From the NCBI RefSeq assembly GCF_024707545.1, contig NZ_CP062229.1:2647501-2711500 (forward strand): a DNA stretch of 64,000 nucleotides, read 5' to 3'. Position numbers and translations under genes: made by a program. A model generated the notes under the pieces. That model was not told the DNA's origin, did no database searches, and saw only the letters and a program-made list of their open reading frames with translations. Origin of the DNA: Mesorhizobium onobrychidis (GTDB lineage: Bacteria; Pseudomonadota; Alphaproteobacteria; Rhizobiales; Rhizobiaceae). Shown here one piece after another: positions 35,478 to 55,385 of this stretch (position 1 is its first letter; each line of letters begins with the position of its first letter).

Positions 35478-35505
35478 TCATATTGACTAAATAGTCGTTT
35501 TGACG
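35478..35505 (+). promoter_or_regulatory. Shared TetR-type promoter/operator, site 1
   Basis: CATATTGACTAAATAGTC is followed by GTTTTGAC. The perfect dyad GACTAAATAGTC sits between a TTGACT -35-like box and a second TTTGAC. It is common to sites 3, 4 and 5 and lies 112 bases upstream of the lipoprotein hydrolase start. Confidence 0.65.
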
Positions 35506-35616
35506 GTAGTGTGCGCTGGCGCGCCGACGACGGCACCTTCCAGTGTATCGGGGGCGGGTCGTTTCACGGTGATGAGCACCGCGTTGGAGCGTTTACAGAA
35601 TAGGACGGATCCAACA

Positions 35617-36852
35617 ATGCCAGCCTGTCGATGTCAGCCGGGGGACCGAAGAAGCTCTCGCTTGGTGCTTGCGATTTTACTGACCATTTGCTTGTTCGCA
35701 AACGGCTGCGCGAGCCGAGCGCAGAACGTGCTCCAACCTCCCGCGGTCACCACGAGCGAGGCCACGCGGGTTAACCTACTGGTCGCCACAACACGCAAAC
35801 CGTCAACGGATCCTGACCGACTTTATTCAGGAGAGCGCGGGACGGCGATCTCGTTGGACAGCGTCACTGTCACCATACCTCCTGATCGAAACCGAAAGAT
35901 CGGTGAAATCCAGTGGCCTTCGCGGCTTCCCCCTGATCCCGATCGGGAGTTTGCCGTGGCCGGAGTCGACAAAATCGCAACGGAAAGACAGGTCTTCGAT
36001 TGGTTCCGCAAGAACCGAAACGCTAAGCGACAGGTGCTCATTTTTGTGCACGGCTATAACAACTCTTATTCCGACGCCGTCTTTCGTTTCTCACAGATCG
36101 TTCACGATGCAGGAACCGACGCAGCGCCTATTCTCTTCGCTTGGCCATCGCGGGCCAGGGTCTTCGACTATCTCTATGACAAGGAGAGCGCCAACTACTC
36201 GCGCCGGGCGTTGGAGGACTTGATCCTCCAGGCCTCCATGAGTCCCGACGTCGACGACGTCACCATTCTCGCTCATTCGATGGGGACGTGGCTTGCCGCG
36301 GAGGCGTTACGCGGTGTCGCCATGCGCAAAAAGTCGATCCCGGCCAAGGTCAGGAATGTCGTCTTGGCGTCTCCGGATATCGACATCGACGTGTTTCGCC
36401 GTCAATTTGTCGAGATGGGGCCAAATAGGCCGCGTTTCACAATTTTCACGTCGACGCGGGACAAGGCTCTAGAGGTCTCCCGCTGGCTATCTGGTGGAAT
36501 TTCGCGTGTCGGCGGTACCGATCTCACGCCGTATAAGGCGGTTCTTGGTGAACTCGGAGTTGCGGTTATCGACACCAGCGCAATAGCGTCGGGAGATTCG
36601 CTGGGCCACAATGCCTTTGCCGGCAGCCCCGAGATTATCCGTTTGCTGGCACAGCGCCTGGGCGGGCAATCTGTGTCCGGAGGCGAGGCTGGGTTCGCGG
36701 ATCGCTTAGCCGCGGCGGCCGGTAGTCTCGGCCGGTCGGCGACGCGCAAAACCGTTACCGTCCCAGTTGATAGCAGCGAGGCACGCAAATTGTTGAAGCG
36801 TGAGTCTACCACCTCGACCGGGCAGATCGTTGATGGTCAGATCTCGTACTAA
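35617..36852 (+). CDS. Lipoprotein alpha/beta hydrolase (DUF900 type)
   Basis: About 411 residues. The N-terminus is a lipoprotein signal with lipobox-like LFANGC after a hydrophobic run (LVLAILLTICLFANG). The remainder is a DUF900 alpha/beta hydrolase: LLVATTRKPS, VLIFVHGYNNSYSDAVFR and the nucleophile elbow AHSMGTW. Acid and histidine residues are further on, in the SLGHNAF region. The ATG at 35617 follows AGGACGG; the longer frame to 35500 runs into the promoter motif. Substrate unknown. Shared operator links it to the TetR regulon. Confidence 0.82.
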   Translation: MPACRCQPGDRRSSRLVLAILLTICLFANGCASRAQNVLQPPAVTTSEATRVNLLVATTRKPSTDPDRLYSGERGTAISLDSVTVTIPPDRNRKIGEIQWPSRLPPDPDREFAVAGVDKIATERQVFDWFRKNRNAKRQVLIFVHGYNNSYSDAVFRFSQIVHDAGTDAAPILFAWPSRARVFDYLYDKESANYSRRALEDLILQASMSPDVDDVTILAHSMGTWLAAEALRGVAMRKKSIPAKVRNVVLASPDIDIDVFRRQFVEMGPNRPRFTIFTSTRDKALEVSRWLSGGISRVGGTDLTPYKAVLGELGVAVIDTSAIASGDSLGHNAFAGSPEIIRLLAQRLGGQSVSGGEAGFADRLAAAAGSLGRSATRKTVTVPVDSSEARKLLKRESTTSTGQIVDGQISY

Positions 36853-36923
36853 GATATCTGTGTAGACTGTGTCAGAGTCACGATAGTCGCGATTAAAGCC
36901 AGCCAACATAGTCTGGACGTTTT

Positions 36924-36936
36924 GGTCAATATGACC
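36924..36936. promoter_or_regulatory. Shared TetR-type operator, site 2 (tetR promoter)
   Basis: GGTCAATATGACC is a dyad whose core, read on the minus strand as GGTCATATTGACC, matches TCATATTGAC in the other four sites. It lies 36 bases upstream of the TetR ATG, in a position for autoregulation. Confidence 0.55.
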
Positions 36937-36971
36937 TAGTGTACAATCTGTTGTTGGAGATCTGATCAGCG

Positions 36972-37673
36972 ATGGCGAAGGTCAATCCGATTCGTCGAGC
37001 CGAAATTGGGCGCGAAAAGCGCGCGCGAACCCGAGCAGAACTCGTTGCCGCGGCCAACTCGTTGTTCGCCAAGCAGGCCGTGGAATCGGTCACAGTCGAC
37101 GACGTGGTCAGGGAGGCCGGCGTCGCCAAGGGTACGTTCTACGTTCATTTCGATGGTTTGGACGCTCTGACCGCGGCGGTCGCGGAGGACCTGGTCCAGT
37201 CTTTCGACGAAATGCTGCAGTCCGGCCGGCTCTCACTCGACGATCCTGCCCTTCGGATTGCGTTCGGGTGCAGCTCATTTATCGACAAGGCCCTTGGTGA
37301 TCCTCGATGGGCCAGCCTTGTCGCCAGAATGGCGGCTGCAGCCCCGAAGGGTGGCGAGCTCCTCCGCAGCCGGCTTTTCGAAGACCTGCAACAGTTCTCG
37401 AAGAACTTGCCGGGCAGCGGGGCATCCGCGGAGCTGAACCTGGAGATCGTCGTTGGGATCATGCTCCAGCTCATGCGCGCGCTCGGCGAGCGCAGGCTGT
37501 CATCGCTCGATCGCGACGCGGCCGTCAGCGCGATCCTGCGCGCGATCGGCCTCAACGCTCGGCAGGCGAAGTCGGTCCTTGCGCGCTTGCCTGGATCTGC
37601 CGACGGCGCAGTGCCTGATGGGCCGAGGCCGCCGAAGTCTCAGCGACCAGGTGCGGCGAGCAGCGCGGCCTGA
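36972..37673 (+). CDS. TetR family regulator (paralogue 1)
   Basis: A 233-residue TetR protein. The N-terminus RRAEIGREKRARTRAELV leads into a helix-turn-helix VTVDDVVREAGVAKGTFYVHF. The first 60 residues closely match the second TetR at 47345-47938, so the two probably recognise similar operators. The C-terminal ligand domain diverges, suggesting different inducers. Dyad site 2 lies just upstream. Confidence 0.87.
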   Translation: MAKVNPIRRAEIGREKRARTRAELVAAANSLFAKQAVESVTVDDVVREAGVAKGTFYVHFDGLDALTAAVAEDLVQSFDEMLQSGRLSLDDPALRIAFGCSSFIDKALGDPRWASLVARMAAAAPKGGELLRSRLFEDLQQFSKNLPGSGASAELNLEIVVGIMLQLMRALGERRLSSLDRDAAVSAILRAIGLNARQAKSVLARLPGSADGAVPDGPRPPKSQRPGAASSAA

Positions 37674-38015
37674 TCTTGGACTGCCGCCCTCACGCGGCGA
37701 TTTCCGTTATCTGTTCGCCGAGATCGGGTGCTTTGTGGCGGGCGCCAGATCCTTGCGTTGATCCGGTCACCAGAGTGTGGCCGGCGCCCTTCTGTTCCAA
37801 AACGGGCGCTCGGGCAGCAGCTGAAGCAAAGTAAGCGCTGCAAGTGCGGCGGGTGGCACACGCAGCGCGCAGCCGCCCGGCGTGACGGTCAAGAGGATAT
37901 CTCCCGGAACGATGTTGGCGAAGGTAGACAATTTCGAGATTGTCGCGGCAGGCCTGAACACGAGAGCGAAAGTGTTATCGCGCCGTCGTACTGTCCCCTT
38001 GATCGCGAACTGGAG
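37674..38015. other. Gene-free interval
   Basis: Short frames occur on both strands, none with recognisable motifs. The expected C-terminal part of DUF1403 copy 1 is not found here. Confidence 0.45.
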
Positions 38016-38741
38016 CTATGTTGCCGCGATGACGGTCACCGTCCTGCGGGACTTACCGGCACTCATAGCCAAAGCCGCCTCGCCGCCCAGAAGCGGTGTT
38101 GCATGGTTCCAGCCCAGCCGTTGCGCCAGCAGTGCATCCGCGAGCCAGCATCCAACGGAGCGTGGCAGGTCGCAGCGCTGGACGGCCACAAAAGCGTCGG
38201 TCAGCATCCCGACCGCGCCTTCGGTGGCCGCAAGTTGCCGAAGCTCGTCGGCCAGATCGCCCACCATCTCATCGCCGCGGGCATGGCCGAAATCTTCCAG
38301 AACTTTGGCGATGCTCGCCTTGGTCAGCAGTTCCTCGGTAGGACGCAGCGCCAGCCGGCGCCAGCCTAGAAACATTCGGCCAGCGGGGCCGACATCGTCA
38401 CCCGACCGCGTCAGCAGCACCGTATCGCGCAAGGCTGCTTCGTCCTCGACGCGGCCCGCTTGCCTCACCGTCACCGCGCCGGCCGCAAGCGCCAGCCGCT
38501 GCCGCCAAGCTCCGGCCCATCGCTCTTGCCGGCGGACCACCGCATCAAGGGCACAGATGGCGGTGCCGGCTGTGATTGCAATGTCATCGACCTCTTTCCC
38601 CGCAAGGCCTTGCGCATCGGGAACGGCACGACGCAGCCAGCTCGGCACCGCCGCAATGGGCGCGGCTAGACCAGCGCCGGGCAGCGTTCTGGGGTGGCGC
38701 GAGAGAGATTTGGGCCGCCTTGTTGGTGAGCATTTTTGCAC
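38016..38741 (-). CDS. DUF1403 protein, C-terminally truncated copy 1
   Basis: A 241-residue DUF1403 protein: ALDAVVRRQERWAGAWRQRL, AGRVEDEAALRDTVLLTR, GPAGRMFLGWRRLALRPTEE, CWLADALLAQRLGWNHATPLL. Compared with copy 2 and the family, about 70 residues are missing at the C-terminus, including the LSAELGRRADRLLAVAPKL and RLFDRLVELGAVREL segments. It ends abruptly at a TAG. Function unknown; DUF1403 genes often sit beside scpB on rhizobial plasmids. It may be non-functional. Confidence 0.75.
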   Translation of the reverse strand: MQKCSPTRRPKSLSRHPRTLPGAGLAAPIAAVPSWLRRAVPDAQGLAGKEVDDIAITAGTAICALDAVVRRQERWAGAWRQRLALAAGAVTVRQAGRVEDEAALRDTVLLTRSGDDVGPAGRMFLGWRRLALRPTEELLTKASIAKVLEDFGHARGDEMVGDLADELRQLAATEGAVGMLTDAFVAVQRCDLPRSVGCWLADALLAQRLGWNHATPLLGGEAALAMSAGKSRRTVTVIAAT

Positions 38742-38766
38742 TCACCTGCGGGAGACGCGCCATCGG

Positions 38767-39021
38767 ATGCTGGCATTGATTTTAGACGGGGAACTGGAGC
38801 GCAGCAGCCATTCGATACGAGTCGAGGCTCCGCGCGATCTGGCCGACGACCCCAGCGGCGATCGGCTCGATGCGCTTTTCTGCGCGATCCAGACGGCCTG
38901 GGCGTGGACGATGCGAAGCGAGCGATACGGCGCGCCGGAACATCTCGATCCGCTCGAGGGATGGATCGCCGATCCATCCCTCAGCGAGATCCAGGAACCC
39001 GCCGGTCCGGCTTCAGCCTGA
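38767..39021 (+). pseudogene. DUF429-like C-terminal fragment
   Basis: About 84 codons including SGDRLDALFCAIQTAWAWTMR and RYGAPEHLDPLEGWIADP, which resembles the C-terminal part of DUF429 predicted nucleases. The N-terminal two-thirds is absent, and the reading frame upstream is only antisense to DUF1403. I regard it as a truncated relic at the border of the RND operon. Recognition rests on memory of the family and is moderate. Confidence 0.4.
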
Positions 39022-39046
39022 ACCCGGCGCCTCATCGGCTCGGCGT

Positions 39047-42000
39047 CTACTCGGCTGCGCCGCTCTCGGAAGCCAGGGTCGGGCCGGCTTCAGGCCGCCT
39101 GCGCCGGAATGTCCTGCGCAGAGCAACGTAGAAGACCGGCGTCAGGAAGAGGCCGAACAACGTCACGCCCAGCATGCCGGAGAACACGGCCGTGCCGAGC
39201 GATTGGCGCATTTCCGCGCCAGGCCCGCTGGCGATCACTAGCGGCACCACGCCCAGGATGAAGGCGAATGCCGTCATCAGGATCGGCCGCAGCCGCAGCC
39301 GGCAGGCCTCGACAGCCGCCTCGACGGCGTCAAGGCCGCGCTCCTCACCTTGGCGCGCGAACTCGACGATCAGGATCGCGTTCTTCGCCGCCAGGCCTAC
39401 GAGCACGATCAGCCCGATCTGCACGAGGATGTTGTTGTCGAGACCGCGGAAGGCGACGCCCAAGAGGGCGGCCAGCACGCTGAGCGGGACGATAAGCACG
39501 ATGGCGAAGGGCGTAATCCAGCTTTCGTATAGCGCGGCGAGCGCCAGAAAGACGAACAGAACCGACAGGCCGAAGATGAAGACCGCCGTGTTGCCGGTCT
39601 GCCGCTCCTGGAAGGCGAGTTCAGTCCATTCGAAGGAAGTGCCCTGCGGCAGCGATTCGGCTGCGATCCCCTCCATCAGGTCGAGCGCCGTGCCCGTGGC
39701 GACACCCGGCGCTGCATTGCCCTGAAGCGGCACGGAGACATACATGTTGTAGCGTTGCACGAGCGAGGGACCGGTGACGTCGCGGATCTCGACCAGTGTG
39801 CCGAGCGGCACCAGGTCGCCGGCCGCCGAGCGCACCTTCAGCTTCAATATGTCGTCGCGATCGATGCGGAAAGCCTGGTCGGCTTGCGCCCGCACCTGGT
39901 AGACGCGACCGAAGGCGTTGAAATCGTTGACATAGGCGGTGCCTAGATTGATCGACAGCGTCTCGAAGATGTTGGGGATCGGCACGTTCAGCATGCGCGC
40001 CTTGTCGCGGTCGATCGCCAGGAAGAATTGCGGGCTGGAGGCCGAGAAGGTGGTGAAGACGCCCATCAACCCGGGCGTCTGGTTGGCCTTGCCGGCGATT
40101 TCGTTGGCCAGCGCCAGAATCGGCCGCATGTCGGCGCTGTTGCGCTCCTGGAGCATCATCTTGAAGCCGCCGGAGTTGCCGATGCCCCGCACTGGCGGCG
40201 GCGGCAGCGCGATGATGAAGGCCTCCTGGATGCTTTGCAGGCTGCCAAACAGCGTGCCGATGATCTTGTCGGAAGTATCGCCGCTCTCGAGCCGTTCCTC
40301 GAAGCTCTTGAATGGCGCGAAGATCACGCCGGAATTGCTGGCGTTGGTGAATGTCGCGCCGTTGAATCCTGCGAAGGCGACGGCGTTGGCGACACCCGGC
40401 GTCTCGCGGATGATATCCGACGCCTTCTGGATGACTGCGTCCGTTCGGGCGAGCGAAGAGCCCTCCGGCAATTGCACGACGACGATCGCATAACCCTGGT
40501 CCATGTTCGGGATGAAGCCGCGCGGCACCGTCTGCAGCATGTGATAGGTCGCGTAGAGCAGGCCTGCGAAGACGAGCAGCATGGCCGCAAGCGCCAGAGT
40601 CGTGCCGACCAGTCTGTGCACCAGCCACGCATAGCCGTCCGCCATCCTGTCGAACCCGTTGTTGAACCCGTTCGCCAGAGCGCGGCCGAACCTTGCCAGG
40701 AAGAAGTTCGAATGTTCCTCGATGTGCGGCTTGAAAAGCACGCCAGCGAGAGCCGGCGAAAGCGTCAGCGAGTTGAATGCGGAGATCGCGGTGGAGACCG
40801 CGATGGTGATGGCGAACTGCAGGTAGAACTGGCCGGAAATCCCGGGAATGAAAGCCGCCGGAACGAAGACGGAGATCAGCACCAGCGAGATCGCGAGGAC
40901 CGCGTTTCCCACTTCATCCATGGTCTTGTGCGCAGCGGCGCGCGGAGCGAGCCCCAGCCGGATGTTCCGCTCGATATTTTCCACAACCACGATGGCGTCG
41001 TCGACAACGATGCCGACCGCCAGCACCAGCCCGAACAGAGTGAGCATGTTGAGCGAGAAGCCGAAGGCGAGCAGCACGGCAAGCGTGCCGATCAGCGAGA
41101 CCGGTATCGCCACGATCGGCACGATCACCATGCGCCACGACTGCAGGAACACGATGATGACGATCACCACCAGCAGGATCGCCTCGGCGATGGTGACATA
41201 GACCTCGTTGATAGATTCGGCGATGAACTCGGTCGGATTGTAGATGATCTCGTAGGCCAGCCCCTCCGGGAAATCCTCCGAAAGCTCCGCGATGGTCTCC
41301 TGGATTTCTTCCGCCGAGGCCAAGGCATTGGTGCCCGGCCGCTGGAAGATGCCGAGCGCCACCGCCGCCTTGTTGTTGAGATAGGAATTGGTGACGTAGT
41401 CCCTGGCGCCGAGCTCTATGCGCGCCACGTCCTGCAGGGAGATCAAGCGGCCGTCCTCGGTCGACTTGACTATGACGTAGCGGAAGTCGCGCGCGTCTTC
41501 GAAGCGCCCTTGCGTGGTGACCGTATACTGGAAGGCCGAGCCGTCGCCAATCGGCGGCGCGCCGATCGAGCCGCCCGACACCTGGACGTTCTGGTCGCGC
41601 AGCGCCTGGACTACGTCGCCTGCGGTCATGCCGTAGGCGGACAGCTTTTCCGGGTCGAGCCAGACGCGCAGCGAATATTCGCGCTCGCCGAAGATCTGCA
41701 CGTCGCCGACGCCGTCCAGTCTCAGCAGGACGTCGCGCACGCGCGAACGCGCATAATTCGAGACGTAGAGCTGATCATATGTGTCGTCGGGCGACAGCAT
41801 ATGGATGACCATCATCAGGTCGGGCGAACTTTTCGCCGTGGTGATGCCGAGCCGGCGCACCTCTTCCGGCAGGCGCGCTTCGGCGATCGAGACGCGGTTC
41901 TGGACCAGCACCTGCGCCGCGTCGAGATCGGTGCCGGGGCGGAAGGTGATGGTGAGCGACATCGAGCCTTCGCCGGAGGAATAGGACGACATGTAGAGCA

Positions 42001-42229
42001 TGTGCTCGACGCCGTTGATTTCCTGTTCGATCGGCGTCGCCACGGTCGCGGCGACCGTCTCGGCGTCGGCGCCCGGATAGGAGGCGCGCACCACGATGGT
42101 CGGTGGCGCGATTTCGGGATATTGCGCGACCGGAAGCTGCGTATAGGCGATGCCGCCGACGAGCACGAGCACGATCGACAGCACCGCCGCGAAGATCGGG
42201 CGGTTGACGAAGAAATGGGCGAAGTTCAT
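39047..42229 (-). CDS. RND multidrug efflux permease (AcrB/HAE1 type), pump 1
   Basis: A 1060-residue trimeric inner-membrane proton/drug antiporter. It has NRPIFAAVLSIVLVLVGG at TM1, the proton-relay aspartates in AVGIVVDDAIVVVENIER, and two large periplasmic loops. The second half repeats the fold (VLIVPLSVLAALLG, VGLAAKNAILIVEFA). Length and motifs are complete. Its start overlaps the membrane-fusion gene stop by four bases. No outer-membrane factor gene is adjacent, so it probably borrows a TolC-like protein. Confidence 0.94.
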   Translation of the reverse strand: MNFAHFFVNRPIFAAVLSIVLVLVGGIAYTQLPVAQYPEIAPPTIVVRASYPGADAETVAATVATPIEQEINGVEHMLYMSSYSSGEGSMSLTITFRPGTDLDAAQVLVQNRVSIAEARLPEEVRRLGITTAKSSPDLMMVIHMLSPDDTYDQLYVSNYARSRVRDVLLRLDGVGDVQIFGEREYSLRVWLDPEKLSAYGMTAGDVVQALRDQNVQVSGGSIGAPPIGDGSAFQYTVTTQGRFEDARDFRYVIVKSTEDGRLISLQDVARIELGARDYVTNSYLNNKAAVALGIFQRPGTNALASAEEIQETIAELSEDFPEGLAYEIIYNPTEFIAESINEVYVTIAEAILLVVIVIIVFLQSWRMVIVPIVAIPVSLIGTLAVLLAFGFSLNMLTLFGLVLAVGIVVDDAIVVVENIERNIRLGLAPRAAAHKTMDEVGNAVLAISLVLISVFVPAAFIPGISGQFYLQFAITIAVSTAISAFNSLTLSPALAGVLFKPHIEEHSNFFLARFGRALANGFNNGFDRMADGYAWLVHRLVGTTLALAAMLLVFAGLLYATYHMLQTVPRGFIPNMDQGYAIVVVQLPEGSSLARTDAVIQKASDIIRETPGVANAVAFAGFNGATFTNASNSGVIFAPFKSFEERLESGDTSDKIIGTLFGSLQSIQEAFIIALPPPPVRGIGNSGGFKMMLQERNSADMRPILALANEIAGKANQTPGLMGVFTTFSASSPQFFLAIDRDKARMLNVPIPNIFETLSINLGTAYVNDFNAFGRVYQVRAQADQAFRIDRDDILKLKVRSAAGDLVPLGTLVEIRDVTGPSLVQRYNMYVSVPLQGNAAPGVATGTALDLMEGIAAESLPQGTSFEWTELAFQERQTGNTAVFIFGLSVLFVFLALAALYESWITPFAIVLIVPLSVLAALLGVAFRGLDNNILVQIGLIVLVGLAAKNAILIVEFARQGEERGLDAVEAAVEACRLRLRPILMTAFAFILGVVPLVIASGPGAEMRQSLGTAVFSGMLGVTLFGLFLTPVFYVALRRTFRRRRPEAGPTLASESGAAE

Positions 42230-43437
42230 TGCGTCTGCCCTTCGGCTTCAACCTTGGGCGGCAACGTGGTCATCTCGGACTTGACGGTGACGCCCGGCCG
42301 CACTCGCACCAGCCCGTTGATTACCACGGTCTCTTCGCCGGTGAGGCCCTCGCGGATAACGCGATAGCCGTCGATGCGCGGGCCGGTGCGGACCGGCTTG
42401 GCCGAGATCAGGCCTGCCTCGTCGACAACGAAGACGATGCGGCGGTTCTGGTCGGCGCCGATCGCCTCGTCAGGCAGAAGCACGCCCGGATGCGGCAGCG
42501 AGCCGGGCACGTTGATGCGGCCGAACATGCCCGGCTGCAGCACGCCGTCCTTGTTGTCGAAGCGCGCCCTGGCCCGCATCGTGCCGGTAGCTTCGTCCAG
42601 ACGGTTCTCGGCGAAGTCGAGCTTGCCCTTGAACGTCGCTTCATCACGGTCGGCGACACGGACGACAACATCGACGCCGCCGGCGCCCTCCTGCATGACG
42701 CCGCCGCGCTCGCGGGCGTCGCGCGCATAAGCGAAGTAGGTCCGCTCATCGATGTCGAAATAGAAGTCGATCGGGTCGATCGAGACGATGGTGGTCAGCA
42801 CGGTCTGGTCGGCCTGCACCAGATTGCCCGGCGAGATGAGCCGGCGGTCGACCCGGCCGGAAAACGGCGCCTTGATCTCGGTGAATTCGAGATCGAGACT
42901 TGCGTTTTCAAGTGCCGCCTCCGCGCCGTCCAGTTGCGCTTGGGCGGCGAGATATTCGCGGCGGCGGTCGTCCAGTGTCGAAACCGGTATGTTGCCTTCG
43001 CGCGACAGGGTCTCGGCGCGCTCGAACTGCATCTTGCTGAATTCGACCAGGGTCTTGGCCGAGTCGACCTGCGCCTGCGCCTGGTTCAGCGCCGCCTTGA
43101 ACGGCCGCTGGTCGATGGTGAACAGGAGGTCGCCCTGCTTGACCAGCGTACCGTCCTGGAAATGGACCTGGTCGAGATAGCCGCCGACGCGGGAGCGCAG
43201 CGAAACCTGGTCGACGGCTTCGAAACGGCCGACGAACTCATCGTCCTCGACGATATCGCGCACCAGCGGCTTGGCTACCGTGACGACGGGCGCGGGACGC
43301 GCTTCCTGCGCCTGTGCAGCCGGGGCCGCGAGCAAGCCGATCGCCGCGAAGGCCGCGGCGGCGAGCCATTTTGCAGGGACGTTTCTGCTGGAGGGGGCGG
43401 CCAGAGAATCGTGGCGGAGGCGTGCAGTGTGAACCAT
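42226..43437 (-). CDS. RND membrane-fusion (periplasmic adaptor) protein, pump 1
   Basis: A 403-residue adaptor of the AcrA family. It has a signal peptide ending APAAQAQE and a lipoyl half-motif (VGGYLDQVHFQDGTLVKQGDLLF). An alpha-hairpin follows, then the returning lipoyl half (IKAPFSGRVDRRLISPGNLV) and beta-barrel domains. No lipobox is seen. Start 43437 has GAGGGG upstream and is preferred over 43464 and 43509. It precedes the permease in the operon. Confidence 0.92.
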   Translation of the reverse strand: MVHTARLRHDSLAAPSSRNVPAKWLAAAAFAAIGLLAAPAAQAQEARPAPVVTVAKPLVRDIVEDDEFVGRFEAVDQVSLRSRVGGYLDQVHFQDGTLVKQGDLLFTIDQRPFKAALNQAQAQVDSAKTLVEFSKMQFERAETLSREGNIPVSTLDDRRREYLAAQAQLDGAEAALENASLDLEFTEIKAPFSGRVDRRLISPGNLVQADQTVLTTIVSIDPIDFYFDIDERTYFAYARDARERGGVMQEGAGGVDVVVRVADRDEATFKGKLDFAENRLDEATGTMRARARFDNKDGVLQPGMFGRINVPGSLPHPGVLLPDEAIGADQNRRIVFVVDEAGLISAKPVRTGPRIDGYRVIREGLTGEETVVINGLVRVRPGVTVKSEMTTLPPKVEAEGQTQ

Positions 43438-43803
43438 GGTTACCCCTCGTAATCGGCCCTTCATGCGAAGTCCGTAACATCTAGGTAGCGGGTGTGCCGC
43501 ACAAATCAATCTTTTGAACTGACCGCCACAACCGACAGCTTGCTATAGAACAAACATCGAACATCATCAACCTTGACAAGGAAGCGGCTAACCGGGGAGC
43601 GCGAACGCACATCTCGCGTTTATCCGCTGCGTAGGCATCGCCATGCGCTCGAGCTAAAGCGGATCTGACAAGCCATTGCGCATCCCGACGTGCGGCGGTT
43701 CTGTCGGGAGGAACAGGGCCGCTCTCGCATAGAGGTCCGACCTGCTTCTCATTCTGACGAGCGGCGAGGTCGCCTGGGTTCTCCGGTCCTAAATGGGGAT
43801 CAT
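43438..43803. other. Intergenic region upstream of RND pump 1
   Basis: No gene. It should hold the pump promoter on the minus strand, but no copy of the TCATATTGAC operator is present, so pump 1 is not obviously in that regulon. Confidence 0.5.
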
Positions 43804-44523
43804 CTATTCGTCGAGCGCGATGCTCGCACCACTATCGTCGATATCTTCAAATCCCGGTATGATGTCACCAGCCAGCAGCTTCTCCTTCGACAGCAGCCCG
43901 GCATCTTCAAGCGCCTCGAAATCCGGCAAATCCCGCAGCGTGTCGAGGCCGAACTCCAGCAGGAATTCTTTTGTCGTAACGTAGGTGTATGGCGCGCCTG
44001 GCGTCGGGCTGCGCGGGCCCGAAGCGATCAGCTTCGCCCCGCGCAGATGGCCGATCAGATCGCGAGAAATCTCCTTCCCGAAGAAGGACGACAGTTCGGC
44101 GCGCGTAATCGGCTGAAAGTAAGCGATGCACATCAGCACCAGCACGTCCGACTGCGTCAGGTCTACAGCAAGCCCGCTGTCGCCGACGGCCGTGCCAAAT
44201 GCACTGCGGATCGCGTCGGCATAGGCTGGGCGGGTCAGGTGTTTCCAGCCGCCGGCGGCCGCAACCAGATCATAGGGACGGCCGCGCAACTCCTCGCGGA
44301 TGTCGTCGATGAGGAGATCAATGCTGCAACTTTTGCCGACGACGCGGGCGAGCGTTTCGCGAGTGACAGGCTCGCTGGCAGCAAAAATTGTCGCCTCGAC
44401 GCGGTGCATCCATTCGCGCCAGCGCGCGTCCGGCGGCAGATGATCCAGCTCACGATCAAACAGGCGGTCGCCTGATCGATGGTCATCTGACCGGCCTCGC
44501 CTCTTGCGCGCTGCTTCAGCCAT
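43804..44523 (-). CDS. SMC-Scp complex subunit ScpB-like protein
   Basis: A 239-residue ScpB homologue with two winged-helix domains: VEATIFAASEPVTRETLARVVG and VLVLMCIAYFQPITRAELSSFFG, then GRPYDLVAAAGGW between them. ScpB with ScpA and SMC organises chromosome segregation; no scpA or smc is adjacent. It starts three bases after the DUF1403 copy 2 stop. This DUF1403-ScpB pairing is typical of plasmid or island backbones and may be a paralogue rather than the housekeeping gene. Confidence 0.85.
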   Translation of the reverse strand: MAEAARKRRGRSDDHRSGDRLFDRELDHLPPDARWREWMHRVEATIFAASEPVTRETLARVVGKSCSIDLLIDDIREELRGRPYDLVAAAGGWKHLTRPAYADAIRSAFGTAVGDSGLAVDLTQSDVLVLMCIAYFQPITRAELSSFFGKEISRDLIGHLRGAKLIASGPRSPTPGAPYTYVTTKEFLLEFGLDTLRDLPDFEALEDAGLLSKEKLLAGDIIPGFEDIDDSGASIALDE

Positions 44524-44526
44524 TTC

Positions 44527-45561
44527 CTAAAGCCCGTAGATGCGGAATGTGGTGCGGCCGGACAGCTCGCGCACGGCGCCGAGTTCGACCAGGCGGTCGA
44601 ACAGGCGGCGCAGGCCGCGATCGCTCATACCGGCGATCTTTTGCCATGCCACGATCGCATCATGACAAGAGTTGCTCCACCACGGTGTCCGCCGCCTTGG
44701 CCCTGAGTTTTGGCGCGACGGCAAGCAGCCGGTCCGCGCGGCGCCCGAGTTCGGCGGACAAATCGATCGCGCGCAGCGCCGCACGTGCCTGCGCCGCTAG
44801 CAGACTGTTCGCAAGGTCAGCTTCATCCTCGGTGCTCGCCGCCGCAATGGCAATTGTCGAGCGGCGGGAGCGGCCGGGACTTGATGAGCCCAAGGCCACC
44901 TCCGCGCCCAGCAACGGCATCGCATGTGCCCAGCCCAACCGCTGCGCCAGCAGCAGGTCGGCGAGCCAGCATCCGAAGGTGCGGCCGAAGCCATGTCGTT
45001 CGGCGGCCAGGAACGCGCCGGTCACCATGCCGACCATTCCGATGCTGGCGGAAAGCTGTCGAAGCTCGTCTGCCAGGTCGCTGACCACCTCGTCGTCGTG
45101 GGCGTGACCGAGATCTTCCAGCACCGCAGCGAAGTTTTTCTCCGTCAGAGGATCTTCGGCCGGCCGGGCTGCCAGCCGACGCCAAGCCAACAGCATCCGG
45201 CCGGCGGGCCCGACATTGCCGCCCGGTCGCGTGAGCAGCACGGCGTCGCGCAGCGCGCTTTCATCCTCGACGCGCCCCGCCTGCCGTGCCGTCACCCCGG
45301 CCGCAGCAAGCGCCAGCCGCTGCCGCCAGGCCCCGGCCCACCGCTCCTGCCGGCGGACCACCGCATCGAGCGCGCCGATGGTGGCGCCTGCGGCGAGCGC
45401 GACCTCTTCAACATCTTTTCCCGCAAGGCTTTGCGCATCCGGGGTGACCCGGCGCAGCCGGCACCGTTGCAATCGACGCGGTCGAAGGGGCACCGCCCAG
45501 CGTGGTGTAGTGGCGCGGAGAGGGTTTGGGGCGCAGAATCATCGAAATTACGATGAATCAT
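44527..45561 (-). pseudogene. DUF1403 protein copy 2, frameshifted at both ends
   Basis: The central frame (about 45493-44660) encodes ALDAVVRRQERWAGAWRQRL to LLAVAPKLRAKAADTVVEQL. It stops at TGA, and the family C-terminus continues in another frame (DAIVAWQKIAGMSDRGLRR, LFDRLVELGAVRELSG) to 44527. A second frame change near 45520 separates a start-like MIHRNFDDSAPQTLS from the rest when compared with copy 1. Two frameshifts suggest a pseudogene. It is a direct paralogue of copy 1 some 6 kb away. Confidence 0.75.
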
Positions 45562-45596
45562 GGCGGCGCTTTTAGCAATTGAGGGCGTCGCGTTGA

Positions 45597-45785
45597 AAGT
45601 ACGCCAAACAACGCTATGCCCTCATCATCTATTGGAATACCGTCCACCTCGGCCACGCCGTCGCAGAACGACGGAACGAAGAACACGATGTGCCGCCCGA
45701 GCTTCTGGCGCACATATCGCCGCTGGGCTGGGCGCACATTTTACTGACTGGCGAGTATCTGTGGCCGAAGGAGCAGAACGCTTAG
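45597..45785 (+). pseudogene. Tn3-family transposase C-terminal relic
   Basis: The last 60 or so codons of a Tn3-type TnpA: YALIIYWNTVHLGHAV, then LAHISPLGWAHILLTGEYLW and a TAG at 45783. Everything upstream is missing; the frame runs out at the junction with the DUF1403 promoter side. Confidence 0.82.
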
Positions 45786-45817
45786 GGTGTCATTTCGCCC
45801 CCACCGGAACCGACCCC
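45780..45817 (+). mobile_element. Tn3-family terminal inverted repeat
   Basis: Directly after the TnpA stop, GCTTAGGGTGTCATTTCG continues to GGAACCGACCCC. Its complement begins GGGGTCGG and has the length and layout of a 38-bp Tn3-family end. It marks one boundary of a lost transposon. No partner end was found in the window. Confidence 0.65.
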
Positions 45818-45974
45818 TATCACCCACAAGCGGCGTGATGCGTGTCCCCAGCACAAACGCCTCATTGCGCTCGCCCCTTGTACTCGAAGCGGGTGAGCTT
45901 GGTCGCCATTCGGATATCTCGCGAAGCGCTGCTTGCGGCCGAGCAGCCATTGAATTCACGCCGCTGCATAATTC

Positions 45975-45999
45975 ATATTGACTATTTAGTCGTTTTGAC
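45975..45999 (+). promoter_or_regulatory. Shared TetR-type promoter/operator, site 3
   Basis: ATATTGACTATTTAGTC followed by GTTTTGAC; dyad GACTA-TT-TAGTC. A TTGACT box lies about 17 bases from ATACTG, giving a plausible sigma-70 promoter. It is 214 bases upstream of the oxidoreductase start. Confidence 0.65.
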
Positions 46000-46212
46000 C
46001 ATACTGTACAAATATCAGTATCGGTGGGCCTTTGCCAGACAGGAGGAAAGGCTAGTGACAAGCGTATCTCAAGCTCCATGGTCGCACGTGCTCCGTATCC
46101 GGTGCCACGGGTTCGCAACTGCGTTGAAGATCACCCTCGGACGGTATGCATTCAAATCGGAGGTGTTGGAGTGTGTCGGCGCCGACCTCGGCAAGGCAGG
46201 GAGGTCCAGGGC

Positions 46213-47235
46213 ATGACATCAGGCGCTGCAGCTCTGTGCCTCGGGCATGGCGGCTCGGACGGGTTTACAGTTCGTCAATTTACAAGGCGAAGGCCGGCGG
46301 CAGATGAAATCGAAGTCGCCGTGACCGCCGCTTCGGTCAACCCGATCGATGTGCGCCGCTCCGAGGGCTACGGCAGGAGGCTGCTATCGCTGATCGGAGC
46401 CGGCAGGTTTCCGCTAGTGCTCGGCAACGATCTTGCGGGTACGGTTACTGCGGTGGGCTCCCGTGTGGCGACTTTCAAGATCGGCGATCGAGTCTATGGA
46501 GCAAAGCCTGCTTCAACCGCGGGGACTCACGCCAGCCATGTGCTGGTCAAGGCTATCCACGTGCTGGCGGTTCCTGAAGGCCTTGACCTTCACCCGCTCG
46601 CGGCAATCCCCTACAGCTTCACGACAATGTGGCTCGCTGTACGCGAAGCGGGTCTTAACCGGGAGAACGCCGCCGGAACGAACGTGCTGGTCCACGGTGC
46701 CGCCGGCGGACTGGGGACGTTGGCAACGCAGATGCTCTCCGTATGGGGCGCGAGAGTTACGGCGATTGCCGGGGAGTCAAACAGCAAGGCGTGTCTCGAG
46801 GCGGGTGCCACCGAAGTGGTCGAGCGAACAGACAAGCAGTTCGTCTCCCTGTCGCGCTCTTTCGACGCAACTCTCAACTTCGCCACCTGGGAAGACGATC
46901 TCGCGTTGCTTGGCTGTCTGCGCGTCGGTGCGCTCGGTCACGCAACCACCGTGCACCCAATGTTAGGGAATTTCGACCGGCTTGGCTGGCTGCGCGGTAT
47001 GCTAAAGACAATCTCGCAAAAGAAGCATCACCGACGCGCGCTGCCGAAGGGCGCCAGCAATTACGCATGGGTCCTCTTCAAGCCGGACAAGGCAGCACTG
47101 GATGATTTGCGCCAGGTCGTCGAACACAACCATGTCAGCCTGCCGATCGGGCTGTGCAAGCCGCTCGCCGCAGCAGGCGTGGCCTTCGACCACGTCAGGA
47201 AAAGACAGCCGGGGCGCGTGCTGCTGCTGCCCTGA
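46213..47235 (+). CDS. Medium-chain (quinone-oxidoreductase-type) dehydrogenase
   Basis: About 340 residues of the MDR superfamily. An N-terminal GroES-like domain (VTAASVNPIDVRRSEGYG, PLVLGNDLAGTVTAVG) is followed by an NADPH-binding Rossmann domain (VLVHGAAGGLGTLATQML). The zinc-ligand cysteine and histidine of alcohol dehydrogenases are absent, so it is of the zinc-free quinone or enone reductase type. Start 46213 follows GGGAGG. Substrate unknown. Operator site 3 links it to the TetR regulon. Confidence 0.83.
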   Translation: MTSGAAALCLGHGGSDGFTVRQFTRRRPAADEIEVAVTAASVNPIDVRRSEGYGRRLLSLIGAGRFPLVLGNDLAGTVTAVGSRVATFKIGDRVYGAKPASTAGTHASHVLVKAIHVLAVPEGLDLHPLAAIPYSFTTMWLAVREAGLNRENAAGTNVLVHGAAGGLGTLATQMLSVWGARVTAIAGESNSKACLEAGATEVVERTDKQFVSLSRSFDATLNFATWEDDLALLGCLRVGALGHATTVHPMLGNFDRLGWLRGMLKTISQKKHHRRALPKGASNYAWVLFKPDKAALDDLRQVVEHNHVSLPIGLCKPLAAAGVAFDHVRKRQPGRVLLLP

Positions 47236-47344
47236 CACCACAGTCGAGACGTTGCGACGAGCGCGAAGGGGCGCACCTCAGGCTTTCATAAGGTGCGTTG
47301 TCCATCAAAACATGCGTCAGGCCGACATGCTTTTCCAACGCTTG

Positions 47345-47938
47345 TCAGCGCTGACTGAGGCCGAGAGCTCGAAGCGTCGCGTCGAGCGCCTGGCTGGTCG
47401 TTTCGGGCCGGGGACCTCGCGCAACAATTCCGCGCGTCACCTCCAGCCATATTCCAATTGCGATGTCGGCTGCCAACTCTACGTCGCGCACGCTCACCCG
47501 GCCCTGGGCAATCGCTTCCTCGATGTCCGCCTTGAGATTCGCGCGGACTCCCATGCCGAACTCAATGGGTGATTGCGAACTCTGAATGACAAGGCGGGCC
47601 CAGTCCGTATCCGCGCTCGCTCTCTCCAGGAATTTCATGAACGCGAAAGAGAGGCGCTCAATCGGGTCCCGCCGCTCGAGCCTGGCAGGCGACAGCAGCT
47701 CATCAAAGCTCTGACTGAGCCCGGCCCCAACCGCTGCCGCCAGATCTCCGATGCTCTTGAAGTGGTAGTAGAAGGTCCCCTTGGCAACGCCCGCAGCCTC
47801 AACGACAGCATCCACCGTGATCGCCTCGTGCGTACGCCCTCCAAGGAGCGTCGCCCCTGCCTCCACGATCTGCGCACGCGTTCGCGCCCGCTTCTCACGC
47901 CCGATCTCCGCCCTGCGCGCCAAATCGACTTTTGCCAT
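47345..47938 (-). CDS. TetR family regulator (paralogue 2)
   Basis: A 197-residue TetR protein with the same N-terminal signature as paralogue 1 (RRAEIGREKRARTRAQIV; ITVDAVVEAAGVAKGTFYYHF). It lies divergent from the patatin operon, with operator site 4 in the 152-base gap, the usual layout for a local autoregulated repressor. Its ligand domain contains a long stretch (LSFAFMKFLERASADTDW) with no recognised ligand motif. Confidence 0.87.
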   Translation of the reverse strand: MAKVDLARRAEIGREKRARTRAQIVEAGATLLGGRTHEAITVDAVVEAAGVAKGTFYYHFKSIGDLAAAVGAGLSQSFDELLSPARLERRDPIERLSFAFMKFLERASADTDWARLVIQSSQSPIEFGMGVRANLKADIEEAIAQGRVSVRDVELAADIAIGIWLEVTRGIVARGPRPETTSQALDATLRALGLSQR

Positions 47939-47949
47939 TCGTCATGCCT

Positions 47950-48004
47950 TTTTTGCATTGCACCATTATGCAACTCTCATATTGACGATATAGTCGTTTT
48001 GACA
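47950..48004 (+). promoter_or_regulatory. Shared TetR-type promoter/operator, site 4, with upstream extension
   Basis: TTTTTTGCATTGCACCATT, then TCATATTGACGATATAGTC and GTTTTGAC. The first part is nearly the same as at site 5, so the two promoters are paralogous over about 65 bases. It serves the patatin operon and probably tetR paralogue 2. Confidence 0.68.
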
Positions 48005-48090
48005 TACTAGTGCAAATTGAAATTGAAACCGGTCCCCATGCGGACGGCGAAGGGCCGCGAGGTCACGCTCGGTGAGAAGGAAAGCATTCG

Positions 48091-49263
48091 ATGAACTTTC
48101 AGCCCCAGAAGGATTTCCGAACGGCGGAACGGCGTCTGCCCTTCGAATGCATTGCGCTGGTGTTGCAAGGAGGCGGTGCGCTCGGAGCCTACCAGGCCGG
48201 CGTCTACGAAGCCCTTGCGGAAGCTGACATTCATCCAGATTGGGTTGCCGGAGTCTCCATTGGCGCCATCAACTCTGCGATCATCGCTGGAAACGAGCCG
48301 GCCGAACGGGTTGAGAAACTGCGGACCTTCTGGCGGGAGATCACTGCCAATCCACTTCTCGACTGGACTGCCGCCGCAGACGCTCTCGCTCCGAAGGGCA
48401 ATCTGCCGCGTGCGCTCTTCAATCAATTCAGTGCAGCCTGCGCGCTCGTCGCCGGGGCCCCAGGCTTCTTCAGCCTGCGACAGCCCGTTCCCTGGTTGTA
48501 CCCGAATGGCTCAATTGAAAGCACGAGCTTCTACGACACCAACCGCCTCAAGAGCACTCTGGAGCGGCTTGTGGACTTCGACCGGATCAACGCGGGCGGG
48601 ATGCGTTTCAGTGTCGGCGCCGTGAACGTGCGGACAGGAAATCTCGTCTACTTCGACAATGAGACGCATACGATCCGGCCCGAGCATGTGATGGCCAGCG
48701 GCTCGCTTCCGCCCGGTTTCCCTGCGGTCGAGATCGAGGGCGAGTTCTACTGGGACGGCGGCCTCGTTTCCAACACGCCGTTGCAGTGGGTCGTCGAGCA
48801 CGGGACGCGGCAGGACACGATTGCCTTCCAGGTCGACCTCTGGAGCGAGCGCGGCGAGCTTCCCCGAAATCTGGCCGACGTCGCGGCACGGCAAAAGGAA
48901 ATCCAGTATTCGAGCCGAACGCGCGCCCATACCGATCAGTTCAAGCAGTACCAGCGCGCCCGACACACGCTCGCGAACCTTCTGGCAAAACTGCCCGCGG
49001 ACCTTTTGGGTAGCGAGGAGGCGAGAACGCTGAGCTCAATTGCGGACCACAAGGTCTACAAGCTGGTCCATCTGATCTACGGCTCGAAGCAGTATGAAAC
49101 CCACTCGAAGGACTACGAATTCTCGCGGCTGTCCATGGAAGAGCATTGGCGGGCTGGTTACTTCGACGCTTTGCGCACTTTGCGCCATCCAAAGGCGCTC
49201 CGTCGGCCGGACAATCAGGACGGGGTTAGCACCTATGACCTTGCTGCCGACGGGCAGGAATAG
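48091..49263 (+). CDS. Patatin-like phospholipase with DUF3734 tail
   Basis: A 390-residue hydrolase with oxyanion loop LQGGGALGAYQAG, nucleophile motif GVSIGAINSA, and catalytic Asp in YWDGGLVSNTPL. The C-terminal part after about residue 280 matches the DUF3734 extension (YSSRTRAHTDQFKQYQRARH). Such genes commonly accompany acetoacetate decarboxylase and 3-hydroxybutyrate dehydrogenase and may act on PHB granules or membrane lipids. Start 48091 has AAGGAAAG upstream. First gene of the operon under site 4. Confidence 0.88.
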   Translation: MNFQPQKDFRTAERRLPFECIALVLQGGGALGAYQAGVYEALAEADIHPDWVAGVSIGAINSAIIAGNEPAERVEKLRTFWREITANPLLDWTAAADALAPKGNLPRALFNQFSAACALVAGAPGFFSLRQPVPWLYPNGSIESTSFYDTNRLKSTLERLVDFDRINAGGMRFSVGAVNVRTGNLVYFDNETHTIRPEHVMASGSLPPGFPAVEIEGEFYWDGGLVSNTPLQWVVEHGTRQDTIAFQVDLWSERGELPRNLADVAARQKEIQYSSRTRAHTDQFKQYQRARHTLANLLAKLPADLLGSEEARTLSSIADHKVYKLVHLIYGSKQYETHSKDYEFSRLSMEEHWRAGYFDALRTLRHPKALRRPDNQDGVSTYDLAADGQE

Positions 49264-49365
49264 AGGTCAGTCACCGCAAAAAGACTGACGTCCCCGTCGC
49301 GGGGCCACCCTGGTCCTTCTGAACGCAAAGCGAACCGCTTGATCCAGCCCAAAGGAATTTCAGAC

Positions 49366-50151
49366 ATGCAGCAAGACACCGTCCGGGCGAGCGCTTTCGC
49401 CATGCCCCTGACCAGCCCGGCCTATCCGGCCGGTCCGTATCGCTTCCGAAATCGGGAGTATCTGATCATCACCTATCGCACCGATCCGCAGAAACTGCGC
49501 GACCTCGTGCCGGAGCCGCTTCAGGTGCGCGAAGCTCTCGTGAAATTCGAGTTCATTCGCATGCCGGACTCGACCGGCTTCGGCGACTACACGGAAAGCG
49601 GGCAAGTCATCCCGGTCACGTTCCGCGGACGCAAGGGCAGCTACACCCATTGCATGTTTCTCAACGACCATCCGCCGATTGCCGGCGGGCGCGAGCTGTG
49701 GGGCTTTCCCAAGAAGCTCGCAAGTCCGACTCTTCGGACCGAAACCGACACTCTGGTGGGCACGCTCGACTACGGCCCGGTCCGCGTCGCGACTGGTACC
49801 ATGGGCTACAAGCACCGAGCCGCGGACCTCGCGAGCGTAAAGGCCTCGCTCGCCGAACCGAACTTCCTCCTCAAAATCATTCCGCATGTCGACGGCACGC
49901 CGCGCATCTGCGAGCTCGTGGAATATCACTTGGAGGAAGTCGAGCTCAGAGGTGCGTGGACTGGTCCGGCAGCCCTGAACCTTTGGTCCCACGCCCTGGC
50001 CCCAGTCGCCGAGCTGCCGGTGCTGGAAGTCGTTTCGGCGGTTCACATCGTCGCCGATCTCACGCTCGCGCTCGGGAAGGTCGTCCACGACTACCTCGCG
50101 GAAGTCGAGCCTCACTATCGGAAAGGAAGAACCCATGCATTCGCAGAATGA
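49366..50151 (+). CDS. Acetoacetate decarboxylase family protein
   Basis: A 261-residue ADC-family enzyme with the catalytic lysine segment [12 protein letters not shown], preceded by [11 protein letters not shown]. Acetoacetate decarboxylase turns acetoacetate into acetone and CO2 through a Schiff base. Start 49366 follows AAAGGAA. The 3' end overlaps bdhA by 17 bases, so the two are coupled. An oligomeric enzyme of this length is typical. Confidence 0.88.
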
Positions 50152-50962
50152 AATTTCATCTTACAAGCACGCTAGCGGGGGTGGCCGGGTTCTCGACAAG
50201 GTGGCGATGATCACCGGAGCCGCGAGCGGCATCGGCAAAGAGATTGCGCTCATATTCGCTCGCGAGGGGGCAAGAGTGGTCATTGCGGATCTTGATCACA
50301 GCGCGGCGCAAAAGGCCGCGTCCGAGATCGATCCGATGGGCAAACGTGCGGTCGGGGTTGGCATGGATGTCAGCAACGAGGAGCAGGTGGAAAGCGGAAT
50401 GGCGCAGGCGATCGAAACCTTCGGGCGCCTCGACATCCTGGTCAGCAACGCCGGCGTCCAGATCGTGGCGCCGCTTGTCGAGTTCGAGTTCGAGAAATGG
50501 AAGAAGTTGCTTTCCATCCATTTGGACGGAGCCTTCCTGACCACCCGTGCCGCCTTGCGGCAGATGTACAGGCAGAAGGGCGGCAGCATCATCTACATGG
50601 GATCCGTGCACTCCAAGGAGGCGTCACCGCTCAAGGCGCCCTACGTCACCGCCAAACATGGCCTCGTTGGCCTTGCGAAGGTCGTGGCCAAGGAAGGTGC
50701 CGCGCACGGCGTGCGCGCCAACGTGATCTGCCCCGGCTTCGTGCGCACGCCGCTGGTCGACAAACAGATCCCGGAGCAGGCACGCGAGCTTGGGATCTCC
50801 GAGGCGGACGTGATCAAGACCATGATGCTGAAAGAGACGGTCGACGGCGAGTTCACGACCGTCCAGGACGTTGCGGAAGCAGCGCTGTTCCTGGCAGCCT
50901 TCCCATCGAACGCGCTGACTGGCCAGTCGATGGTGGTCAGCCATGGATGGTTCATGCAGTAG
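50135..50962 (+). CDS. bdhA: 3-Hydroxybutyrate dehydrogenase (SDR)
   Basis: A 275-residue short-chain dehydrogenase with cofactor motif [13 protein letters not shown], the NAG motif [10 protein letters not shown], and the YxxxK catalytic pair in [12 protein letters not shown]. The C-terminal residues [12 protein letters not shown] match bacterial BdhA. It interconverts 3-hydroxybutyrate and acetoacetate with NAD+. With the upstream decarboxylase it would drain 3-hydroxybutyrate to acetone. Start 50135 has GGAAG upstream. Confidence 0.88.
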
Positions 50963-51038
50963 CGGGTTCGGAGACGCGCGTCTTATCGCGCGCGATCTCC
51001 CTCCTTCTGTAGGATCAATCTTAGCTACTGGTCATCCC

Positions 51039-51093
51039 TTTTTTGCATTGCACGATTGCACAATTCTCATATTGACCATATAGTCGATTTGAC
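51039..51093 (+). promoter_or_regulatory. Shared TetR-type promoter/operator, site 5, with upstream extension
   Basis: TTTTTTGCATTGCACGATT, then TCATATTGACCATATAGTC and GATTTGAC, with TATAAG as -10 about 17 bases after TTGACC. Nearly identical to site 4. It lies about 100 bases upstream of the RND pump 2 adaptor gene. Confidence 0.7.
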
Positions 51094-55371: not shown

Positions 55372-55385
55372 GGAAGGGGCTTGCC

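Follow-up and report, generated by a model that had tools for sequence, protein, structure and literature searches.

In Bradyrhizobium japonicum USDA110, the locus BjG30 is induced by genistein and other 5-hydroxyflavonoids, and, as far as the excerpted parts of its description go, it brings together an RND pump, two TetR genes and the genes of acetoacetate decarboxylase (ADC) and 3-hydroxybutyrate dehydrogenase (HBDH) outside the symbiosis island (PMC4070704). The same excerpts place the TetR protein FrrA beside an RND pump in rhizobia (PMC4070704), and by its PDB title the FrrA structure 6g8g holds genistein, a flavonoid ligand. RolR of Corynebacterium glutamicum, another TetR protein, has resorcinol as its inducer in the portion of the literature drawn on here (PMC3086911). 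We have examined a window of 64,000 nucleotides of Mesorhizobium onobrychidis (C1:2647501-2711500, C1 being contig NZ_CP062229.1), where an RND pump stands with a patatin-ADC-HBDH cluster and paired TetR genes, called TetR1 and TetR2 here.

Four promoters of this locus share a near-palindrome, TCATATTGAC-N6-GTCGWTTTGA(C), with a core of 26-27 bp, and the TetR1 promoter has a reversed form of it. We think it probable that TetR1 and TetR2 are twin repressors acting on this shared operator and that a plant phenolic releases them. The existence of the regulon is well supported by sequence, and binding of the operator is predicted; at the same level, the specificity of the operator within the genome, its co-occurrence with the TetR genes, its conserved placement and its presence with either paralogue type alone are established.

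The operator, its specificity and its distribution

The operators and the genes around them are as follows, by position in the window.

35478..35504, plus strand: operator 1, TCATATTGACTAAATAGTCGTTTTGAC, 0 mismatches, before the DUF900 hydrolase gene
35500..36852, plus strand: DUF900 alpha/beta hydrolase (PF05990, E 1.8e-76)
36909..36934, minus strand: operator 2, reversed and half-degenerate, in the TetR1 promoter; along TetR1 it reads TGGAC-N6-GTCAATATGAC
36972..37673, plus strand: TetR paralogue 1 (TetR1; PF00440, 44.0 bits, cut-off 24), of the TetR1 clade
45973..45999, plus strand: operator 3, 0 mismatches, before the MDR oxidoreductase gene
46024..47235, plus strand: MDR-type oxidoreductase (PF08240; top NCBIfam match the quinone oxidoreductase PIG3 subfamily, under its cut-off)
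47345..47938, minus strand: TetR paralogue 2 (TetR2; PF00440, 39.3 bits, cut-off 24; AlphaFold2 model with pLDDT 87.7)
47977..48003, plus strand: operator 4, 0 mismatches, in the divergent TetR2/patatin promoter
48091..49263, plus strand: patatin-like phospholipase (DUF3734; PF12536, PF01734)
49339..50151, plus strand: ADC (NF002614, 442.5 bits, cut-off 150)
50135..50962, plus strand: HBDH (NF009931, 396.9 bits, cut-off 340)
51067..51093, plus strand: operator 5, 0 mismatches, before the MFP-RND pump, with A at operator position 21
51194..52276, plus strand: RND periplasmic adaptor (MFP2; TIGR01730, 237 bits)
52273..55371, plus strand: RND permease (RND2; PF00873, 529 bits)
55368..55982, plus strand: conserved protein of 204 aa, whose gene overlaps the end of that for RND2 and closes the pump operon (no match in Pfam or NCBIfam)

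These are the genes that an original prediction, made from the letters alone, had named: the hydrolase, the MDR oxidoreductase, the patatin/ADC/HBDH group, the MFP-RND pump and both TetRs. It had also noted five copies of the motif across the region, and the copies are real, with coordinates that needed shifting by 1-2 bases. The window has exactly five copies of the 10-mer TCATATTGAC, at 35478, 45973, 47977 and 51067 on the plus strand and at 36925-36934 on the minus strand, with no further copy at one mismatch within it. This is far above chance: a first-order Markov model of the window gives a mean of 0.05 exact copies and a maximum of 1 in 60 simulations. When the window was shuffled, five matches at up to one mismatch were reached in 3 of 100 shuffles (mean 1.77). 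The further claim that TAGTCG and TTTGAC stand at fixed distances in four of the five also holds, as TCATATTGAC-N4-TAGTCG-N-TTTGAC, with the TetR1 copy lacking them. On the opposite strand the 26-bp core reads TCAAAWCGAC-N6-GTCAATATGA. At TetR1, the left arm with its GTC, TCATATTGACNNNNNNGTC, recurs upstream of TetR1-type genes: of 21 cases, 18 have it with no more than one mismatch and 20 with no more than two; by this comparison the predicted site at operator 2 is a conserved reversed operator, and accounts for the GGTCA/TGACC dyad at TetR1.

Genome-wide, the motif does not stand at background frequency. Across all 7,548,464 bases, the extended pattern at up to three mismatches finds 7 sites versus 0 for a reversed control, namely the four in the window and C1:2562807, 2566127 and 2578165. 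The left arm with GTC matches exactly at 8 places and with one mismatch at 8 more (0 and 1 in the control); 7 of the exact and 1 of the one-mismatch matches lie within the regulon. The remaining exact match, C1:1843979, falls where an unrelated TetR gene begins, has no right arm and was taken as chance.

The three sites outside the window all fall in a duplicate locus about 120 kb upstream, with second copies of MDR (93% protein identity), TetR2 (97%), ADC (94%), HBDH (95%), MFP2 (97%), RND2 (98.5%) and the 204-aa protein (98%). One might suppose from this that the sites resemble one another only through recent gene duplication. For the copy-2 sites this holds; for the four window sites it is refuted, as they precede unrelated genes, differ in their N6 spacers and flanks, and are shared by relatives, and as a general account we give it next to no credence. 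The duplicate has a different paralogue of the DUF900 hydrolase (39%), its patatin aligns to that of the window over only 85 of 390 residues, and its HBDH is separated from its MFP2 by a response regulator and sensor-kinase genes, one of which encodes 1988 aa. The patatin there is a remnant (L018:11127-11800; C1:2566127 onward), yet operator, ADC and HBDH are retained.

The distribution among genomes ties the operator to the TetR genes, with counts that are not independent because of shared ancestry. Exact operator sites occur in 18 of 146 Mesorhizobium genomes, and strong TetR homologues occur in the identical 18 (best E <=1.9e-99; the next genome is at 3.2e-17), a coincidence with a chance of about 1e-23 under an independence of genomes that does not hold. 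Weak TetR matches at E ~1e-17 (G026, G042 and a second one in G065) were not counted in the 18. The fullest order in the genus is operator, DUF900, TetR1, operator, MDR, then TetR2 divergent across an operator from patatin-ADC-HBDH, then operator, MFP2, RND2 and the small open reading frame; many loci have parts of it missing. The pairing of TetR and operator extends to Rhizobium, Sinorhizobium, Phyllobacterium, Microvirga, Roseiarcus and some Bradyrhizobium. In loci chosen by name (L050-L064), some of which coincide with genomes of the genus scan (L050 = L157), the operator is present in 15 of 15 at up to three mismatches and in 14 at up to two, versus none at up to three in 57 loci of remote TetRs (911 kb). 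A TetR at E <1e-70 is found in 9 of 257 Bradyrhizobium genomes, eight of which have an operator with no more than one mismatch; that of the ninth (G608) has two. Among plasmids, TetR2 matches 8 records, 7 of them rhizobial; the operator is present at up to two mismatches in 5 of 7 fetched plasmids, in degenerate form in one of the five (Rhizobium T136), and the two without it carry TetRs of 38% and 30% identity. An order-level scan of 397 genomes, whose matches included none of the Rhizobium and Sinorhizobium carriers found by name, gave 14 genomes with a match at up to two mismatches, and matches at 0-1 mismatches only in three members of the genus.

It could be argued that the TetRs are bystanders and that the 27-mer serves as a promoter or binds some other regulator, since it overlaps a -35-like TTGAC and the conserved flanks TTGCAC and GTnCAAA lie outside the dyad. 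Yet presence and absence of the site track the TetR genes in Mesorhizobium, in Bradyrhizobium and on separate replicons, the site is near-palindromic, and its orientation is reversed at TetR1; we consider the bystander account very unlikely. The original proposal of a shared operator and a TetR regulon with roles for both paralogues is strongly supported by genome-wide specificity, the match across 146 genomes and the other genera.

Several observations lie at the edge of this distribution. The remaining matches of the Bradyrhizobium scan were set aside as repeatedly occurring sequence inside long open frames, which measured 405-578 aa in the 30 loci checked; since some accepted sites are also covered by open frames, of up to 451 aa, the frame check alone does not discriminate. 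In the Rhodobacterales homologues (L065, L066, L072) the N-terminal arm is kept and no convincing operator was found (L072 has one match at three mismatches). The distant homologues at 28-39% (L068-L071 of Parvibaculum, L066, L072), which likewise show no convincing operator, have monooxygenase and FAA-hydrolase genes nearby, to which the Parvibaculum neighbourhood adds a dioxygenase gene. In Ensifer canadensis (L293:9758-9783), the operator also precedes an FMN-dependent NADH-azoreductase gene.

Two paralogues and a proposed mechanism

The original prediction had remarked on the near-identical N-termini of the two TetRs, which match at 19 of 22 arm residues (86% over residues 1-22); identity falls to 50% in the helix-turn-helix and 32% in the sensing domain. 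They belong to separate clades, each spread across several genera. The fold is that of a TetR, all-helical with about nine helices, and predicted palindromic sites lie in own and neighbouring promoters. Each type also occurs alone. TetR2-type genes are the only strong matches in ten Mesorhizobium genomes, including G040, whose second TetR is also TetR2-type, and likewise on a short Bradyrhizobium contig of G697. TetR1-type genes occur without TetR2 in Bradyrhizobium G608, G641, G688 and G726, in L063 and L064, and in the stretches examined of Microvirga ossetica and Roseiarcus. TetR1-only and TetR2-only loci alike carry the same operator.

One operator base differs with paralogue type. In a table that excludes L060, and whose loci are related within each type and so are not an independent test, position 21 is A in 15 of 15 sites of TetR2-only Mesorhizobium loci and in 2 of 2 in G040; in TetR1-bearing loci it is T in 28 of 37 sites, or 25 of 28 when the RND2-promoter (MFP2) sites, which make up most of the exceptions, are excluded. 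Leaving out L171 of G033, a genome of unclear type whose 8 sites comprise 5 with T and 3 with A, gives 27 of 36 and 24 of 27. H2 (Mesorhizobium B1-1-8) was not taken up a second time, its coordinates being those of G121. The pattern suggests shared DNA recognition with divergent sensing, and position 21 as a possible preference code; shared ancestry could yield it too. Because the arm is kept and the sensing domain has diverged, two inducers may feed one regulon.

How would such an operator act? Flanks were compared over 61 distinct sites, chosen at up to two mismatches with TTGAC kept, so that conservation of the arms is partly by construction. The six central bases are A/T-rich, the left arm includes TTGAC, a TA-rich block follows the right arm, and TTGCAC and GTnCAAA are conserved in the flanks. 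TTGCAC stands about 20 bp before the operator and GTnCAAA about 8 bp after it, both off its dyad axis. A -10 element at 17-18 bp from TTGAC is weakly supported, with a mean of 2.56-2.67 TATAAT matches as against 2.52 at 15 bp; the highest mean, 3.3, is at a spacer of 23 and falls on the GTnCAAA block.

In the mechanism that we favor, TetR1 and TetR2 would be paralogous repressors of one 26-bp near-palindrome, whose left-arm TTGAC may double as a -35-like element, with the TA-rich block 17-18 bp downstream as a putative -10. A bound dimer or pair of dimers would then block RNA polymerase by promoter occlusion, and each protein would also act on the promoter of its own gene. The ligand that binds the helical C-terminal domain and releases the TetRs would be a plant phenolic, most likely 5-hydroxyflavonoid-like. 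Release would switch on efflux (MFP2-RND2), hydrolysis (DUF900, patatin) and the MDR oxidoreductase, and also a branch from 3-hydroxybutyrate through acetoacetate to acetone.

The proposed inducer and the relation to BjG30

Evidence on the inducer comes from the genes on which the operator sits in relatives and from described systems of similar content. In Bradyrhizobium, in 13 rows that derive from about 7 distinct genomes, it lies beside TetR1 in a divergent promoter, with an FAA hydrolase on one side and, on the other, an FAD monooxygenase that has a glyoxalase-fold dioxygenase behind it; G555 differs, its site preceding an RND pump. Microvirga ossetica shares the arrangement with the FAA hydrolase, after which come an acyl-CoA synthetase and the MDR gene. 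An FAD monooxygenase with a glyoxalase-type dioxygenase is the pairing of FdeE/FdeC and IfcA/IfcB in flavonoid degradation, in the parts of those reports consulted (PMC11069340, PMC11303751). The likeness of the fde (Herbaspirillum) and ifc (Variovorax) systems to the Bradyrhizobium and Microvirga genes is one of enzyme type, not of sequence comparison, and such genes are absent from the window itself.

Among solved structures, the nearest sequence is RolR (3aqs/3aqt, E 1.8e-27 over 15-205; the next best is at 6.3e-14). Since 5,7-dihydroxyflavonoids have a substituted resorcinol as their A ring, a flavonoid is a plausible ligand. By analogy with these systems, the inducer is probably a plant phenolic, and probably a flavonoid.

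The original prediction favored a lipophilic acid or ester as signal, and we do not, given the aromatic-ring-cleavage genes under the operator in relatives and a cargo like that of a genistein-induced locus. The same regulon might still answer to a fatty acid, ester or beta-keto acid from lipid or polyhydroxybutyrate turnover: patatin, the DUF900 hydrolase and HBDH belong to it, and FadR-group TetRs are among the top fold matches (TM 0.73-0.75 versus 0.64-0.67 for RolR). However, operators that are not accompanied by those genes sit on aromatic-ring genes or pumps, the nearest solved TetR by sequence is RolR and not FadR, and TetR fold matches are generic. We regard a lipid-derived inducer as unlikely, if the most serious competitor to a phenolic.

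The resemblance of the cargo to BjG30 invites the reading that the locus is simply BjG30 as it occurs in Mesorhizobium, controlled by a genistein repressor like FrrA. The same types of cargo, an RND pump with patatin-ADC-HBDH and two TetRs, are present in both, and BjG30-type Bradyrhizobium loci are 64-69% identical to the window in patatin, 77-82% in ADC and about 50% in the pump, which in those loci has two MFPs, unlike the window. The regulators seem to differ. FrrA (6g87, 6g8g) is outside the best 60 for the window TetRs by sequence, and its fold match to TetR2 is a generic one (rank 21, TM 0.58); for the TetRs of three BjG30-type loci (L258, L265, L266; 3 of 3), FrrA is the nearest solved relative (E 2.4e-16 to 5.2e-16). 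The FrrA operator is reportedly the subject of Wenzel 2012. The operators are unrelated too. No window-type operator was found beside the BjG30-type genes in those Bradyrhizobium loci; another palindrome precedes the patatin gene in 6 of 13 of them in the printed promoters, as AAACTATACGGTATAGTTT exactly in L257 and L258 and as variants in L262, L263, L265 and L272. Its form AAACTATACSGTATAGTTT, at up to three mismatches, is present in 14 of 16 BjG30-type loci (L253-L266, L271 and L272, the exceptions being L253 and L271) versus 0 of 57 control loci, often preceding a TetR or patatin gene, and such palindromes are candidate sites of FrrA-like TetRs. The window has no AAACTATAC-type palindrome with an FrrA-like TetR. 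In two loci (L256, L257), a stretch of no more than 20 kb contains both BjG30-type genes and a TetR1 that has an operator of its own. We disfavor a BjG30 copy under FrrA, and judge it improbable, little better than the bystander account.

Because operator and TetR differ in the BjG30-type loci, the same effector genes appear under two TetR lineages. We offer tentatively, at somewhat less than even confidence, the view that one effector set is governed by two lineages with unrelated operators, FrrA-like in Bradyrhizobium and RolR-like twins in Mesorhizobium and other rhizobia, and that position 21 tunes the assignment of twin to promoter. Further comparisons, those with FrrA and the AAACTATACSGTATAGTTT scan among them, strengthen the two-lineage part and weaken the position-21 part, leaving our estimate of the whole unchanged. 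The regulon had been put forward as new; its cargo is known from BjG30, and for the operator no description was found in the openly licensed literature, subscription papers being outside the search.

Returning to twin repressors released by a plant phenolic, a number of findings count against it. First, no spacing yields a clear -10 across the 61 sites. Second, single matches at 2-3 mismatches turn up in 18 of the other 128 Mesorhizobium genomes, as against 5 genomes with the reversed control; we have taken the 18 as background. Third, two Bradyrhizobium TetRs are of intermediate similarity (E ~1e-58): immediately before that of G600 stands a perfect-palindrome variant, TCAAATTGAC-N6-GTCAATTTGA, at two mismatches, and the scan of G674 gave nothing better than three. 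Fourth, the second TetR2-type gene of G040 (L300, G040:C86) has no site at up to three mismatches in 18 kb. Fifth, the RolR motif Asp94-Arg145-Arg148-Asp149, its positions assigned by eye, is mostly not conserved: only the Asp149 equivalent is nearly invariant, Arg148 and Asp94 are not kept, and Arg145 is found in 7 of 8 TetR1-type rows and not in TetR2-type ones; moreover, structures of fatty-acid FadR proteins match the model at least as closely as RolR does. Sixth, genistein induction belongs to BjG30, to which the window is likened by cargo, and is not directly transferable because the BjG30-type loci have another TetR and operator. Finally, a link to symbiosis finds no support in nodA, which is not enriched (14 of 18 carriers versus 87 of 128 others).

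By type, nodA is found in 7 of 7 TetR1-bearing and 6 of 10 TetR2-only genomes, with G033 excluded since both its DUF900-operator contigs end inside the DUF900 gene and TetR1 may be lost to assembly. The window locus is at 2.65 Mb and nodA at 7.06 Mb. Given this distance and the absence of enrichment, "plant-phenolic response" is a better name for the module than "nodulation system".

Rhizobia must both tolerate and use plant phenolics, and this would be a compact regulon for doing so. Its operator is so specific that it can be read off a genome sequence, its sensors form a paralogous pair, and its response genes are seemingly placed under different regulators in different symbionts. It could be used to predict, strain by strain, which phenolics are exported or degraded, and the operator and repressor pair could serve in rhizobial biosensors.

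Neighbouring genes of the locus

The DUF900 open reading frame as listed begins at a TTG within operator 1, and the true start is probably a later ATG. A relative of the 204-aa protein sits behind an operator in Rhizobium and Sinorhizobium loci, and the second TetR2-type gene of L300 (69%) adjoins an RND pump and a large sensor kinase. Between TetR1 and the MDR gene (37700-45500) lie the following.

38016-38741 and 44660-45493: a pair of DUF1403 genes, 70% identical over 184 residues
39047-43509: an additional RND pump; it and a ScpB-like gene lie between the two DUF1403 genes

Together they break up the fullest Mesorhizobium gene order here. No operator adjoins the additional pump in the window, the ScpB and DUF1403 genes intervening before the 45973 site. 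In two relatives (L166, L304), a pump 98-99% identical to it directly adjoins the MDR-promoter operator, divergently, and there the operator might serve a pump of this type.

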